From Chloroflexota bacterium (lineage in GTDB: Bacteria > Chloroflexota > Anaerolineae > UBA4142), in NCBI GenBank assembly GCA_016215025.1, contig JACRMI010000131.1:1-64000 (forward strand): DNA of 64,000 nucleotides, given 5' to 3'. The notes under the pieces are model-generated. The model was not told the DNA's origin, made no database searches, and saw nothing but the letters and a program-made list of their open reading frames with translations. Every line of letters starts with the position of its first letter. Position 1 is the stretch's first letter. Made by a program: the position numbers and the translations under genes. Positions 3,535 through 16,458 of the stretch are shown one piece after another.

Positions 3535-3564
3535 AAAAAAGACAAGTCAACGCGACTTGTCTTT
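3535..3564 (-). terminator. Intrinsic terminator (attenuator) in the his leader
   Basis: On the minus strand an 11-bp perfect stem, AAAGACAAGTC with GACTTGTCTTT, closes a 5-nt loop and runs into six U. It ends about 16 nt before the hisZ start and follows a leader peptide with three His codons, so it is read as the attenuator of the operon. Confidence 0.85.
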
Positions 3565-3615
3565 GGGGTGAGTGTGAAACGCCAAAATGGCGACTCGGTT
3601 TTACCGACCCACCCC
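3565..3615 (-). promoter_or_regulatory. Branched structure ahead of the his attenuator
   Basis: GGGGTGGGT (fwd 3607-3615) can pair with ACTCACCCC (fwd 3565-3573) over 9 bp with one G-U. It encloses two small hairpins, CGGT/ACCG and CGCCA/TGGCG. The structure abuts the terminator stem and overlaps the end of the leader ORF, so a ribosome reaching the stop codon would open it. Confidence 0.6.
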
Positions 3616-3657
3616 ATTTAGGTGATGATGCTTTGGACAAAACTCTGTTGTGAACAT
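3601..3657 (-). CDS. His operon leader peptide with three consecutive His codons
   Basis: The 18-residue peptide is MFTTEFCPKHHHLNGVGR, with codons CAT CAT CAC at 3622-3630. It lies between a consensus promoter and an intrinsic terminator, directly upstream of hisZ-hisG-hisD. In enterobacterial his operons such a peptide senses charged tRNA-His by ribosome stalling; the same role is inferred here. The ATG starts only 9 nt past the -10 box, so the message is probably leaderless and no Shine-Dalgarno is needed. Which RNA segment acts as antiterminator could not be settled by eye. Confidence 0.75.
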   Translation of the reverse strand: MFTTEFCPKHHHLNGVGR

Positions 3658-3665
3658 TTGCGGCG

Positions 3666-3694
3666 ATTATATGCGAAACGTGCTTGATTGTCAA
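3666..3694 (-). promoter_or_regulatory. Consensus sigma-70-type promoter of the his operon
   Basis: On the minus strand TTGACA (3689-3694) and TATAAT (3666-3671) are separated by exactly 17 nt. Both hexamers match consensus fully. The predicted start site falls at or next to the ATG of the leader peptide. Confidence 0.88.
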
Positions 3695-3732
3695 ACCCGC
3701 AAAGCCGATATTTAATCCGAATGGAGGAACAC

Positions 3733-4101
3733 ATGGCAAGTGTATTAACACAACATATCGAAATCACACCTGGTGTATTCGGTGGCAAACCACACATCGC
3801 AGGGCATCGAATTCGCGTAATGGACATTGTTGCTTGGCACGAAAAACGCGGACTATCCCCCGATGAAATCGTAACCCTTTATCCGAGTATCACACTTGCA
3901 GATGTTCATGCCGTACTCGTCTATTACTTCGATCACCGTGAAGAAATCGAAGCCGCATTTAAACACGAATTTCGTTCGCACGAAACGAAAACCGTGTGGT
4001 CGTTACACTCGACGATGATTTTCTCACGCTGGCAGCGAGCGGTATCGAACATTCAGGAATCACCTATTGCACCGCAACCAAGTACTCCGTCGGTGAATTG
4101 A
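3733..4101 (+). CDS. DUF433-type antitoxin with an abnormal C-terminus
   Basis: The first 75 or so residues match the DUF433 family, small helical proteins that usually act as antitoxin to a PIN-like DUF5615 toxin: ITPGVFGGKPHIAGHRIRV, then a segment ending LSPDEIVTLYP, then LADVHAVLVYYFDHREEI. The start has GGAGG 5 nt upstream. After about residue 80 the frame runs into sequence that encodes the toxin C-terminus in another frame, so the tail from about ETKTVWSLHST onward is probably nonsense. See the toxin remnant. The module is likely inactive. Confidence 0.75.
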   Translation: MASVLTQHIEITPGVFGGKPHIAGHRIRVMDIVAWHEKRGLSPDEIVTLYPSITLADVHAVLVYYFDHREEIEAAFKHEFRSHETKTVWSLHSTMIFSRWQRAVSNIQESPIAPQPSTPSVN

Positions 4102-4172
4102 TTTACGCCTTGTTACTTGTTGCGAGTGTGCTTGAATCTGCCGACATGCGCAACCAAATCGAATTTCTTTGA
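3990..4172 (+). pseudogene. DUF5615-type toxin remnant, out of frame behind the antitoxin
   Basis: Read in the frame of 3993, this stretch gives VVVTLDDDFLTLAASGIEHS, then GITYCTATKYSVGELIYALL, and ends MRNQIEFL before TGA at 4170-4172. This is the C-terminal half of the toxin usually encoded after DUF433. The N-terminal half of about 45 residues and the antitoxin stop are missing, which points to one deletion that joined the two genes out of frame. Confidence 0.72.
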
Positions 4173-4174
4173 GT

Positions 4175-4203
4175 TTGACATTGCGCGCAAGCTATGTTAT
4201 ATT
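4175..4203 (+). promoter_or_regulatory. Promoter of the arginine operon
   Basis: TTGACA (4175-4180) and TATATT (4198-4203) are separated by 17 nt. Transcription would begin near 4210, about 11 nt before the leader ORF. Confidence 0.82.
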
Positions 4204-4220
4204 CGCGCCACGTTAGCAAT

Positions 4221-4301
4221 ATGAAGATTTCAATTGCATTGCCTACTCGACCGCGTCCTACACTAGATCATGCGTCTGGTGTTTTTGGCATTGCAATCTA
4301 A
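4221..4301 (+). CDS. Putative arginine operon leader peptide
   Basis: A 26-codon ORF beginning MKISIALPTRPRPTL carries CGA at 4248-4250 and CGT at 4254-4256, between the operon promoter and an intrinsic terminator. ATTGCATTGCC (4233-4243) can pair with GGCATTGCAAT (4287-4297) with one mismatch, placing the Arg codons in the loop. In that loop GTCTGG (4274-4279) copies part of the terminator 3' arm and could pair with CCAGAC of its 5' arm as an antiterminator. There are only two Arg codons and no Shine-Dalgarno, so the peptide is less certain than the terminator. Confidence 0.5.
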   Translation: MKISIALPTRPRPTLDHASGVFGIAI

Positions 4302-4328
4302 CTGCTTGAACTAGTTATTTTTGAATGC

Positions 4329-4366
4329 AACCCAGACCACAGCTTTGTCGGTCTGGGTTTTTATTT
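4329..4366 (+). terminator. Intrinsic terminator (attenuator) in the arg leader
   Basis: AACCCAGACC (4329-4338) pairs with GGTCTGGGTT (4350-4359), with ACA/TGT extending the stem inside and TTTTTATTTT following. It lies between the operon promoter and argC, so it must be read through for expression. Confidence 0.85.
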
Positions 4367-4374
4367 TATGCGGT

Positions 4375-4499
4375 TGTCATTCTGAGCGAAGCGAAGAATC
4401 TCGCTTCCCGAGAACGAGATTCTTCGTCACAGTCCTTCGACTGCGCGACACGCTTCGCGCGTCGTTCCGCTCACGCGAAGCGTGCTCCTCAGAATGACA
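4375..4499. repeat. REP-like palindrome, TGTCATTCTGAGC family (copy 1)
   Basis: Starts TGTCATTCTGAGCGAAGCG and ends with the inverse TCAGAATGACA, with nested inverted segments (GAATCTCG/CGAGATTC and TTCGCGCGTC-type words). It separates the arg attenuator from the argC ribosome site. Confidence 0.8.
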
Positions 4500-4511
4500 T
4501 GTGGAGGAATC

Positions 4512-5519
4512 ATGATTCGAGTTGGAATTTACGGCGCGACCGGGTACACGGGCATTGAATTGGCGAAAATCTTTGCGCGACATCCAGAAGTCGAAATCAA
4601 ATTCGCCACGTCTGATTCGTACGTCGGCAAGAAACTCAGCGAAGCCTTCCCCTGCCATTTCGATATTCCCCTTGTCGCGCACGACGCCGCCCCGCTCGAC
4701 CGAATCGATGTTGCTTTCCTCGCACTTCCTCACGGTGCTTCCGCCGATTACGGCAAGCGCGTCCTCGATGCTGGCGCGAGCGTGATCGATCTCTCCGCCG
4801 ATTTCCGTTTGCACGATGCGGCGGCGTACAAAAAATGGTACGGACTCGATCATCATGCGCCCGAACTTTTGCCTCAAGCCGTCTATGGCTTACCCGAACT
4901 TCATCGTGATCAAATCAAGAAAACGAAATTGCTTGCGAACCCCGGCTGCTATCCGACGAGCGTGATCCTGGGTCTCGCTCCGATTTGGCGCGCGAATGCG
5001 ACGAACGATACCATCATCGTCGATAGCAAGTCGGGCGTGTCGGGCGCGGGGCGCAAAGCAACCGACATCGTGCATTTTGTCCAAGTGAACGAAAACCTCT
5101 CGCCGTACAACATCGGGCGCGTGCATCGCCATCTTTCCGAGATGGAACAAGAGTTGAAATTGGTCAATCCAAAAGCATCGCTGATTTTTTCTCCACATCT
5201 GCTGCCGGTGACTCGCGGCATTCTTTCGACGATGTACGTGCGCCTCACCGATGGCTGGGACGAAAATCGCTTGCGCCAACTTTACGCCGAAACGTACTGC
5301 AACGAACCATTCGTGCGCATTCTGCCGAGCGGACAATTTGCGACGCTGACGCACAGCAACTATACCAACTATTGCACGATTTCGATTCATCACGTAGCAG
5401 ACGTGAATCAAGTCATCATCTGCGCCAGCATCGACAACCTCATCAAAGGTGCGAGCGGTCAAGCGGTGCAGAACATGAATTTGATGTTTGGAATTTCCGA
5501 AACGACGGGATTACTATAA
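4512..5519 (+). CDS. argC: N-acetyl-gamma-glutamyl-phosphate reductase
   Basis: ArgC reduces N-acetylglutamyl phosphate with NADPH in arginine synthesis. The start MIRVGIYGATGYTG has GGAGG 4 nt upstream and gives 335 residues, the normal length. The nucleotide-binding loop GATGYTG is at 8-14 and the catalytic Cys at 146 in ANPGCYPTS; SGVSGAGR follows. It is the first structural gene of the operon, about 150 nt after the attenuator. An in-frame ATG 30 nt upstream lies in the repeat and is ahead of the ribosome site, so it was rejected. Confidence 0.95.
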   Translation: MIRVGIYGATGYTGIELAKIFARHPEVEIKFATSDSYVGKKLSEAFPCHFDIPLVAHDAAPLDRIDVAFLALPHGASADYGKRVLDAGASVIDLSADFRLHDAAAYKKWYGLDHHAPELLPQAVYGLPELHRDQIKKTKLLANPGCYPTSVILGLAPIWRANATNDTIIVDSKSGVSGAGRKATDIVHFVQVNENLSPYNIGRVHRHLSEMEQELKLVNPKASLIFSPHLLPVTRGILSTMYVRLTDGWDENRLRQLYAETYCNEPFVRILPSGQFATLTHSNYTNYCTISIHHVADVNQVIICASIDNLIKGASGQAVQNMNLMFGISETTGLL

Positions 5520-7606: not shown

Positions 7607-8500
7607 ATGTATTTAGAATTTCAAGTAGGCAGTACACTGCAAATTGCAAACGAATTGGTGCGTTGCGTCGAAGAAATATCGCTCAACGCGCTGCCTGCCC
7701 TGCAAACGATGCACCTCGACGGCTGGGTTTTGCGATTTGCAAATGGCTACACCAAGCGCGCTAACTCGATCAATCCGATTTACGATGGCGCAGATAACGT
7801 CGAAGAAAAAATTCGCTTCTGCGAAGAAATTTATCGACGCAAGCACCTGCCCGTCGTTTTCAAAATGACCAAGACAGCCCAGCCCGAAAATCTCGATTCG
7901 ATTCTTGCGGACAAGGGTTATGAAATCAATTCGCCAACCAGCGTACAAATCGCCGAGCTTGGCAATGTCGATTCATCGCTACTCAGCACTTGTCATTTCG
8001 AGCGAAGCGAGAAATCTCGGCTAATACGGGACGAGATTTCTCGTCGGCAAAACCCGCCTCCTCGAAATGACAGATTATGCAGCTACGATTCATCGCCCAA
8101 TGCGCAAGCAACTGAGACGCTGACCGAAGAATGGTTCGCGCAGTTCTGCCGCATGAATAACATCGCTGAGAAAAATAAATCGACGCTGTGGCAAATCCTC
8201 GCAAACATCGATTTACCCAAATGCTTTGTGACCGTTGGCAACGATGGCAAATCCGTTGCATGCGGGATGAGTGTGATGCAAGGACAATACATCGGTTTGT
8301 TCGATATCGTAACCGATGCATCGTTCAGAAACAAAGGTTTCGGCAAGCAGACTGTGCGCCGTTTACTTGCCTGGGGAAAAGAAAACGGCGCACGACGCGC
8401 TTATCTCCAAGTGATGGAAAACAATGCGCCCGCGCTCCAACTCTATTCACAAGTCGGATTTACTCCTGTTTACCAGTATTGGTATAGAATCAAGAATTAA
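7607..8500 (+). CDS. GNAT-family N-acetyltransferase carrying a repeat-derived insert
   Basis: A 297-residue protein. The N-terminal part has DGWVLRFANGYTKRANSINP, typical of one GNAT subfamily of unknown substrate. The C-terminal part has the acetyl-CoA site, IVTDASFRNKGFGKQTVRRL (about 235-255), and ends in a GFTP-YQYWYR segment. Residues about 129-156 are a translation of the REP-like palindrome (CHFERSEKSR ... PPPRNDR), inserted in frame between the two halves. It sits inside the arginine operon, but no arginine-pathway step can be assigned to it; the next gene is the better ArgA. Confidence 0.8.
   Translation: MYLEFQVGSTLQIANELVRCVEEISLNALPALQTMHLDGWVLRFANGYTKRANSINPIYDGADNVEEKIRFCEEIYRRKHLPVVFKMTKTAQPENLDSILADKGYEINSPTSVQIAELGNVDSSLLSTCHFERSEKSRLIRDEISRRQNPPPRNDRLCSYDSSPNAQATETLTEEWFAQFCRMNNIAEKNKSTLWQILANIDLPKCFVTVGNDGKSVACGMSVMQGQYIGLFDIVTDASFRNKGFGKQTVRRLLAWGKENGARRAYLQVMENNAPALQLYSQVGFTPVYQYWYRIKN
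7991..8072. repeat. REP-like palindrome inside a coding region (copy 2)
   Basis: Starts TGTCATTTCGAGCGAAGCG and ends in the inverse CGAAATGACA, with GAGAAATCTCG/CGAGATTTCTC inside. It is read through in frame by the GNAT gene. Confidence 0.8.
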
Positions 8501-8584: not shown

Positions 8585-9127
8585 TTGCTCGATTATTCTG
8601 TGTTTACTGTGACCTCTGTGGCTACAAATGAAATAATTATTCGCCGCGCAACCCTCGCCGACGCGCAAGCCCTTGCCGATCTCGTGAATCTCGGTGAACG
8701 TGAAGGTCAATTGATTCCGCGCACCATCGATTCCATTCGCAACACGATTGACGATTGGATGATCGCCGACAGTGATGGTCGGGTGATCGGCGTCGGTTCG
8801 CTCGTTGAAATGGGTCCCACGTTGAGCGAAGTTCGTTCGCTCGCGGTCGCGCCTGACTATCGCAAGTTCGGCATTGGCGCAAAGATCGTTGCCGCGCTGA
8901 TCGACCTCGCGCGCGAGCGTGAAATCCCAACCGTATTTGCGCTCACGCGCGCGGTTCCGTTTTTCGAGAAGCAAGGTTTTAGTGTAACGACGAAAAATGA
9001 CTTTCCCGAAAAAGTCTGGCGTGATTGTATTGTCTGTCCCGTGCGCAACGCGTGTGATGAAGTTGCTGTCGTGAAATCAGTCGCCAGTATTCAGTCGTCA
9101 GTCGTCAGACGAGGTCTCATTTCCTAA
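8585..9127 (+). CDS. argA: Short-form N-acetylglutamate synthase (ArgA-like GNAT)
   Basis: It would acetylate glutamate to start or replenish the arginine cycle. The GNAT core covers residues about 18-130: IIRRATLADAQALADL, the acetyl-CoA loop VAPDYRKFGIGAKIV, then VPFFEKQGF. The segment FPEKVWRDCIVCPVRNACDE with its Cys residues is characteristic of the single-domain ArgA type. The start is taken as TTG with AAAGGA upstream; a GTG 8 codons later is possible. The last 15 residues or so come from a CAGTCGTC-type repeat and are not family sequence. Because argJ follows, ArgA may be mainly anaplerotic. Confidence 0.8.
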   Translation: MLDYSVFTVTSVATNEIIIRRATLADAQALADLVNLGEREGQLIPRTIDSIRNTIDDWMIADSDGRVIGVGSLVEMGPTLSEVRSLAVAPDYRKFGIGAKIVAALIDLAREREIPTVFALTRAVPFFEKQGFSVTTKNDFPEKVWRDCIVCPVRNACDEVAVVKSVASIQSSVVRRGLIS

Positions 9128-16264: not shown

Positions 16265-16296
16265 AAACCGACCGGCAGAACACATGCGGTCGGTTT
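16265..16296 (-). terminator. Intrinsic terminator in the beta-helix operon leader
   Basis: On the minus strand AAACCGACCG pairs with CGGTCGGTTT over 10 bp around a 12-nt loop, with five U following. It lies about 50 nt before the first beta-helix gene and about 300 nt after the predicted promoter, so it suggests attenuation or a riboswitch-like leader. Confidence 0.7.
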
Positions 16297-16311
16297 CGCC
16301 ACTTGCTCCCT

Positions 16312-16458
16312 CTAGTCGCTGGCGTCCAAATGTCGGAGAGTTCCCGACTGACCGGAGATCAACGCATCCGCTGGATCAATGTTTGACATCTGCCGTATCA
16401 AGTCTCTGCAAAGCATATGACAAATGTCGGAGATCTCAATCTTAAATGCTTGGTCCAC
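16312..16458 (-). CDS. Putative 48-codon ORF in the beta-helix leader
   Basis: Starting at GTG it begins VDQAFKIEISDICHMLCRDL and ends LRHLDASD. The composition looks protein-like and amphipathic, and the strong AGGAGG lies directly against the GTG, which is too close for normal initiation. The leader terminator follows its stop. It could be a small regulatory protein, a leader ORF, or chance inside a structured RNA. No homologue is recognised. Confidence 0.3.
   Translation of the reverse strand: MDQAFKIEISDICHMLCRDLIRQMSNIDPADALISGQSGTLRHLDASD

Follow-up and report, generated by a model that had tools for sequence, protein, structure and literature searches.

A probable arginine leader-peptide attenuator upstream of argC in the Anaerolineae, a class of Chloroflexota

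The arg operon near the left end of the 64,000-nt stretch of Chloroflexota DNA analysed here (the window) is preceded by a short ORF with Arg codons and by a terminator. Two key questions raised by this arrangement are: (i) whether a ribosome reading those codons controls the operon; and (ii) whether such control is shared by related genomes. A preliminary description had proposed a leader-peptide attenuator in which a copy of GTCTGG acts as antiterminator, and the conservation of the leader in relatives and the absence of ArgR both support that proposal. Computation reveals the parts of such a device, their conservation, the conservation of Arg at the amino-acid level, mutually exclusive pairings and the lack of ArgR. 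On sequence comparison and modelled folding, the window leader is very probably a transcription attenuator, mediated by the ribosome and sensing charged tRNA-Arg, that governs the whole arg operon.

Leader-peptide attenuators have been described mainly in Proteobacteria (PMC3766115, PMC2965389), and according to Naville and Gautheret (2010), leader peptides had been shown only in Proteobacteria and Actinobacteria before their his case in Firmicutes (PMC2965389). The known specificities are His, Leu, Thr and Trp, plus Ile/Val and Phe, in a survey centred on gammaproteobacteria (PMC3766115), and no arginine leader peptide was found in Actinobacteria (PMC1262725). The literature we searched, mainly open-access papers, describes no leader peptide for an arginine operon, although one may have been reported before in a subscription journal. 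An Rfam search of the leader returned no leader or T-box family, including the amino-acid leaders and the speF leader, either at the gathering score or up to E = 1.

The features of the leader and the first gene of the operon, all on the + strand, are as follows.

4175..4203, + strand: sigma-70-type promoter, TTGACA (4175-4180), 17-nt spacer, TATATT (4198-4203); 11/12 match to consensus
4221..4301, + strand: leader peptide ORF of 26 codons, MKISIALPTRPRPTLDHASGVFGIAI-stop; homologous ORFs in six same-family genomes
4233..4243, + strand: 5′ arm of the outer stem around the Arg codons, ATTGCATTGCC; relaxed fold
4248..4256, + strand: regulatory codons CGA-CCG-CGT (Arg-Pro-Arg); Arg cluster conserved across the class
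4260..4268, + strand: region 1, 5′ arm of the inner stem, ACACTAGAT, partner of region 2; from the fold and from 1:2 pairing in 62 leaders
4274..4282, + strand: region 2, 3′ arm of the inner stem, GTCTGGTGT, whose GTCTGG is the predicted antiterminator strand; from the fold and the alignment
4287..4297, + strand: 3′ arm of the outer stem, GGCATTGCAAT; relaxed fold
4329..4338, + strand: region 3, 5′ arm of the terminator, AACCCAGACC, whose CCAGAC pairs with GTCTGG of region 2; from pairing and the folding walk
4350..4367, + strand: region 4, 3′ arm of the terminator (4350-4359), GGTCTGGGTT, with the T-run of an intrinsic terminator; from the fold, kept in relatives
4512..5519, + strand: argC, first gene of the operon (NCBIfam TIGR01850, 397 bits)

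The promoter, the 26-codon ORF with its CGA (4248-4250) and CGT (4254-4256), the stem and the repeat of GTCTGG in the 3′ arm of the terminator are all where the preliminary description had placed them; small corrections to it are the start of argC at 4512 and a repeat-like element between terminator and gene. In the relaxed fold, the outer and inner stems combine into a single long hairpin around the Arg codons, and the terminator follows it. The stem around the codons is the outer part of an anti-antiterminator hairpin. GTCTGG (4274-4279) is also complementary to CCAGAC (4332-4337). The folding of the window leader beats dinucleotide shuffles with z = -3.3. Counting against an attenuator, this copy carries just two Arg codons and an antiterminator of 6 bp.

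The operon downstream has the order argC-argB-argD-GNAT-GNAT-argG-argJ-argH and reaches 13106, with argB, argD, argG, argJ and argH also identified. The first GNAT protein (7607-8500) is named from the appearance of its sequence, while the second (8585-9127) is similar to amino-acid N-acetyltransferases at a score under the curated cut-offs. An inverted repeat-like element at about 4377-4500 (CATTCTGAGCGAAGCGAAGAATCTCG.. / ..CTCCTCAGAATGACA) separates the terminator from argC. This spot seems to tolerate insertion, because relatives carry other, unrelated stretches there. Further away, a c-di-GMP-II-GAG riboswitch aptamer lies at 16279-16378 on the - strand (Rfam RF03169, 49.6 bits).

The proposed mechanism is as follows. 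RNA polymerase would start at about 4210, with a ribosome following on the leader ORF. When arginine is ample, the ribosome would pass the Arg codons and region 1 would pair with the GTCTGG of region 2, leaving region 3 free for region 4, and transcription would end before argC. If Arg-tRNA ran short, a stall on the Arg codons would leave the ribosome covering region 1; GTCTGG would then pair with CCAGAC of region 3, no terminator would form and the operon would be transcribed. We infer that ribosomes translate the ORF and stall on it, that arginine affects termination, and that the signal sensed is charged tRNA rather than free arginine.

A short ORF rich in codons for the product lies before a biosynthetic operon, and an intrinsic terminator lies between that ORF and the first gene. 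The leader has the computable defining features of his and trp attenuators and is predicted to work like them. It shares with the his, trp, leu, thr, ilv and phe attenuators of Proteobacteria a promoter directly upstream of a short ORF with codons for the operon's product, and an antiterminator that is mutually exclusive with an intrinsic terminator. It differs from them in its arginine specificity, its occurrence in Chloroflexota, the lack of an Rfam match, the identity of region 2 with the 3′ arm of the terminator (GTCTGG), and a stop codon that often comes after region 2, unlike in trp, a point that speaks against the attenuator reading.

Among close relatives, the leader is readily recognized. 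A DNA search of 60 relatives gave clear matches in six genomes of the same family (E 1e-12 to 2e-3), all six immediately upstream of argC, whereas the weaker of the 25 matches in that search are at chance level. The TTGACA and -10 elements are kept in these relatives (L002-L007), and the peptides read ..PRPRRTPA.RSG.FGV.L-stop or close variants. Recurrence of the same ORF with its hairpin and terminator right before argC in relatives puts the window leader above chance. One relative (L006) uses a different frame after intact Arg codons and has a TAG inside the loop of the 1:2 hairpin, with GCATCAGAC/GTCTGGTGC still forming a perfect stem; selection therefore acts on the Arg codons and the RNA, not on the peptide tail. 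A covariance model, R1, built from seven leaders and searched over 249 class genomes, had matches at argC in seven genomes of family f37 (E 9e-12 to 8e-5) and in one f6 genome (E 5e-4).

To look across the class, where homologous leaders are more diverged, 96 argC upstream regions from 26 families were fetched, from an ArgC sampling list that was ranked by score and is not a random draw. An Arg cluster was taken as an ATG ORF of at most 60 codons with at least three Arg in six codons, and 67 of the 89 regions of at least 600 nt have one, compared with a mean of 23.2 in dinucleotide shuffles (maximum 34 in 40 runs) and 24 on the antisense strand. With a threshold of four Arg, the count is 27 against 3.5 in shuffles (n=89). 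No other amino acid is clearly above shuffles in the same 89 upstreams. Arg clusters are at chance in the upstreams of lysY-type paralogs from the same class (7 versus 8.1 expected, n=20), and likewise in the argC upstreams of 40 Chloroflexota genomes outside it (9 versus 11.6). Base composition as the source of the clusters is ruled out by the shuffles, the antisense strand, the lysY paralogs and the other classes. About a quarter of the class upstreams lack a cluster at these thresholds, some of them because the window or contig is short. Typical peptides are ..RSPRSPRRMQPDRWSG-stop, ..YPRRPRMVAPDDVSG-stop, ..RFPRIRRPETLPG.., ..VRRIRRRQTNGLVFSVV-stop and MINFLSRPRRRLF-stop. A scored terminator accompanies the Arg cluster in 72 leaders from 22 families, and the median distance from the last Arg codon to the start of the terminator is 69 nt.

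The spelling of Arg differs between families, with CGN used in some and AGG in others, and it is therefore the amino acid that is conserved. Of the Arg codons in leaders, 26% are AGG, versus 3% in argC N-termini; among the 33 leaders with AGG, it accounts for 66/113 Arg codons versus 2/55 in argC of the same genomes, and the window's own his and arg genes have AGG at 0/197 Arg codons. As judged from this codon usage, selection acts at the level of the amino acid, and many lineages prefer a rare codon.

The codon data bear on a scenario in which the same RNA switch is driven by an arrest peptide, with arginine itself sensed in the exit tunnel of the ribosome. This is reminiscent of the fungal arginine attenuator peptide (CPA1/arg-2 uORF), an upstream peptide that also regulates arginine synthesis, but which is eukaryotic, acts on translation and stalls at abundant arginine. 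The nascent chain of the leaders is indeed Arg-rich, and in some families the neighbours are conserved (P-R-P-R-R, R-S-P-R-R). However, the peptide outside the Arg residues varies freely between families, the enrichment of rare AGG fits sensing of tRNA, and in this anatomy biosynthesis would be turned on only by stalling on scarce arginine; we consider an arrest peptide very improbable.

Returning to ribosome-mediated attenuation, the RNA side of the switch also has a common layout across families. Arg codons are followed by CCAGAC (region 1) and GTCTGG (region 2), often by an immediate stop codon (GTCTGGATAG), and then by TTGCGCTTGGGC, about 45 nt and the terminator, with CCAGAC (region 3) in its 5′ arm or at the border of arm and loop. 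The Arg codons appear to be enclosed by back-pairing of TTGCGCTTGGGC, and an outer stem like that of the window was seen by eye in several other leaders. GTCTGG occurs 40-130 nt before the end of the terminator in 53/89 leaders versus 3/179 background windows. In a 62-leader alignment, 1:2 pairing is possible in 93.3% of pair cells and 2:3 pairing in 97.6%, falling to 12-50% when the strands are slid. Families f12 and f5 have other mutually complementary sets, GGGTCCGG/CCGGGCTC and GCCGTGTGTC/GACACACGGC. The comparison of argC upstreams suggested in the preliminary description finds that related genomes conserve the Arg codons, the terminator and the pairing of GTCTGG with CCAGAC, with modest covariation. 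Covariation in the core helix is modest because GTCTGG, near-invariant in leader alignment A5, hardly varies, as one would expect where a single strand has to match two partners; covariation is weak as a main proof with so invariant a core, and the argument is carried by the other tests. In L055, L056, L059-L061 and other leaders of the class, GTCTGG is nearly invariant and the TAGTTGCGCTTGGGC that follows is conserved too. The invariance over many families seems to exceed what pairing with two partners requires.

Many families also conserve nucleotides that lie outside the helices (GTCTGGATAGTTGCGCTTGGGC), and this, together with a terminator downstream, is what might be seen with an RNA aptamer for arginine or a related metabolite, in which case the ORF would be incidental. 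Such a riboswitch is very unlikely: Arg is the sole clearly enriched residue and its codons differ by family (AGG or CGN), which an aptamer would not need, the surroundings of the hairpin differ among families f1, f5, f12, f33 and f37, and there is no match to any Rfam family.

The switching expected of an attenuator was followed with a folding walk through 79 leaders, each cut before the 3′ arm of the terminator, with kinetics ignored. Free RNA has 3.0 expected antiterminator pairs; with the ribosome edge 11 nt beyond the last Arg codon the number rises to 12.1, and it then falls to 4.3 at +35 and to 2.4 at +47; with shuffled spacers the values are 3.1 (free), 6.2 (+11), 4.8 (+35) and 3.2 (+47). 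The window leader has 6.2 pairs when free, 13.6 at +5 and 1.8 at +35. In computed folding, the antiterminator excludes the terminator and is favoured by a ribosome sitting over the regulatory codons. The idea that the terminator is constitutive and belongs to an upstream transcript, or that this is a structured leader with no regulatory role, the Arg cluster stemming from GC-rich composition, can be set aside as scarcely credible, for although GC-rich genomes often yield Arg-rich ORFs (23/89 in shuffles), the cluster is observed in 67/89, and the 69-nt median spacing between Arg codon and terminator, the conservation of GTCTGG/CCAGAC and the ribosome-dependent folding all stand against it.

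Among known arginine-responsive devices, the nearest that uses Arg codons is the speF leader (orf34/speFL), known from Salmonella and other gammaproteobacteria, where arginine is sensed through ribosome pausing at consecutive Arg codons (PMC6386406). It controls ornithine decarboxylase rather than an arginine biosynthesis operon (PMC6386406), works through Rho, RNase G and translation instead of an intrinsic terminator, and is not matched by the arg leader in Rfam. Arg-specific T-box riboswitches of Firmicutes likewise sense the charging of tRNA-Arg and control arginine genes (PMC1262725), but bind uncharged tRNA directly without translation, and the arg leader has no T-box match. ArgR provides arginine feedback on arg operons as well, but is a DNA-binding protein and is absent from the class genomes searched.

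The search for argR that the preliminary description had called for found none in the window's own genome or in the class genomes tested. The ArgR N-terminal domain (PF01316) has 0 matches in the window's own genome, and the C-terminal domain (PF02863) has matches in 0/249 class genomes, while control genomes do match. In a sample of the phylum, ArgR is found in 40/201 genomes, all outside the class. The attenuator probably stands in for ArgR and controls arginine synthesis throughout the class. A scan for ArgC in named genomes yielded few Chloroflexota; the leader is present in Anaerolinea sp. CH6 (L148), Caldilineales DTUCFX11 (L149), Anaerolineaceae BD1 (L151) and Anaerolineae bin10092 (L152), and none is found at argC of Chloroflexus islandicus (L150) or of a Dehalococcoidia MAG (L200). 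Three of the 40 outside-class argC upstreams (L261, L262 and L265) resemble genuine arg leaders and may come from Chloroflexia. A plasmid search for spread of the leader gave no match.

It had also been suggested that attenuation is a general habit of this organism, for which there is partial support. A His leader next door, with a KHHH peptide kept in a relative, agrees with this, but no leader was seen upstream of trpE or ilvB in the window's genome. The His leader (3538-3694, - strand) belongs to the divergent hisZ-hisG-hisD operon, and consists of a perfect promoter (3694-3666), an ORF (3657-3601, MFTTEFCPKHHHLNGVGR-stop) and a terminator (3564-3538), all on the - strand. The relative, G005 (L005), has its homologous KHHH leader in the same place beside its arg leader. 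The interval that separates the his operon from the arg operon has small ORFs at 3688-4170; by eye, the first of them (3688-4101) resembles a DUF433-type antitoxin.

Finally, we offer a more tentative extension. It is possible, though rather doubtful, that attenuation at Arg codons is ancestral and class-wide in Anaerolineae and replaced ArgR there, that the leaders in L261, L262 and L265 are related to it, and that GTCTGG is held by a further constraint beyond pairing, for instance a role as a pause signal for polymerase or the action of a factor in trans. If the attenuator is as we propose, arginine would be a new specificity for classic leader-peptide attenuation, over a whole class of Chloroflexota, and the leader would be a new RNA family, missing from Rfam. 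The choice between AGG and CGN in the leaders is a natural experiment on which the selective-charging theory of attenuator codons could be tested (PMC1183508). The leader would also account for how arginine synthesis is controlled in a large environmental group that has no ArgR.
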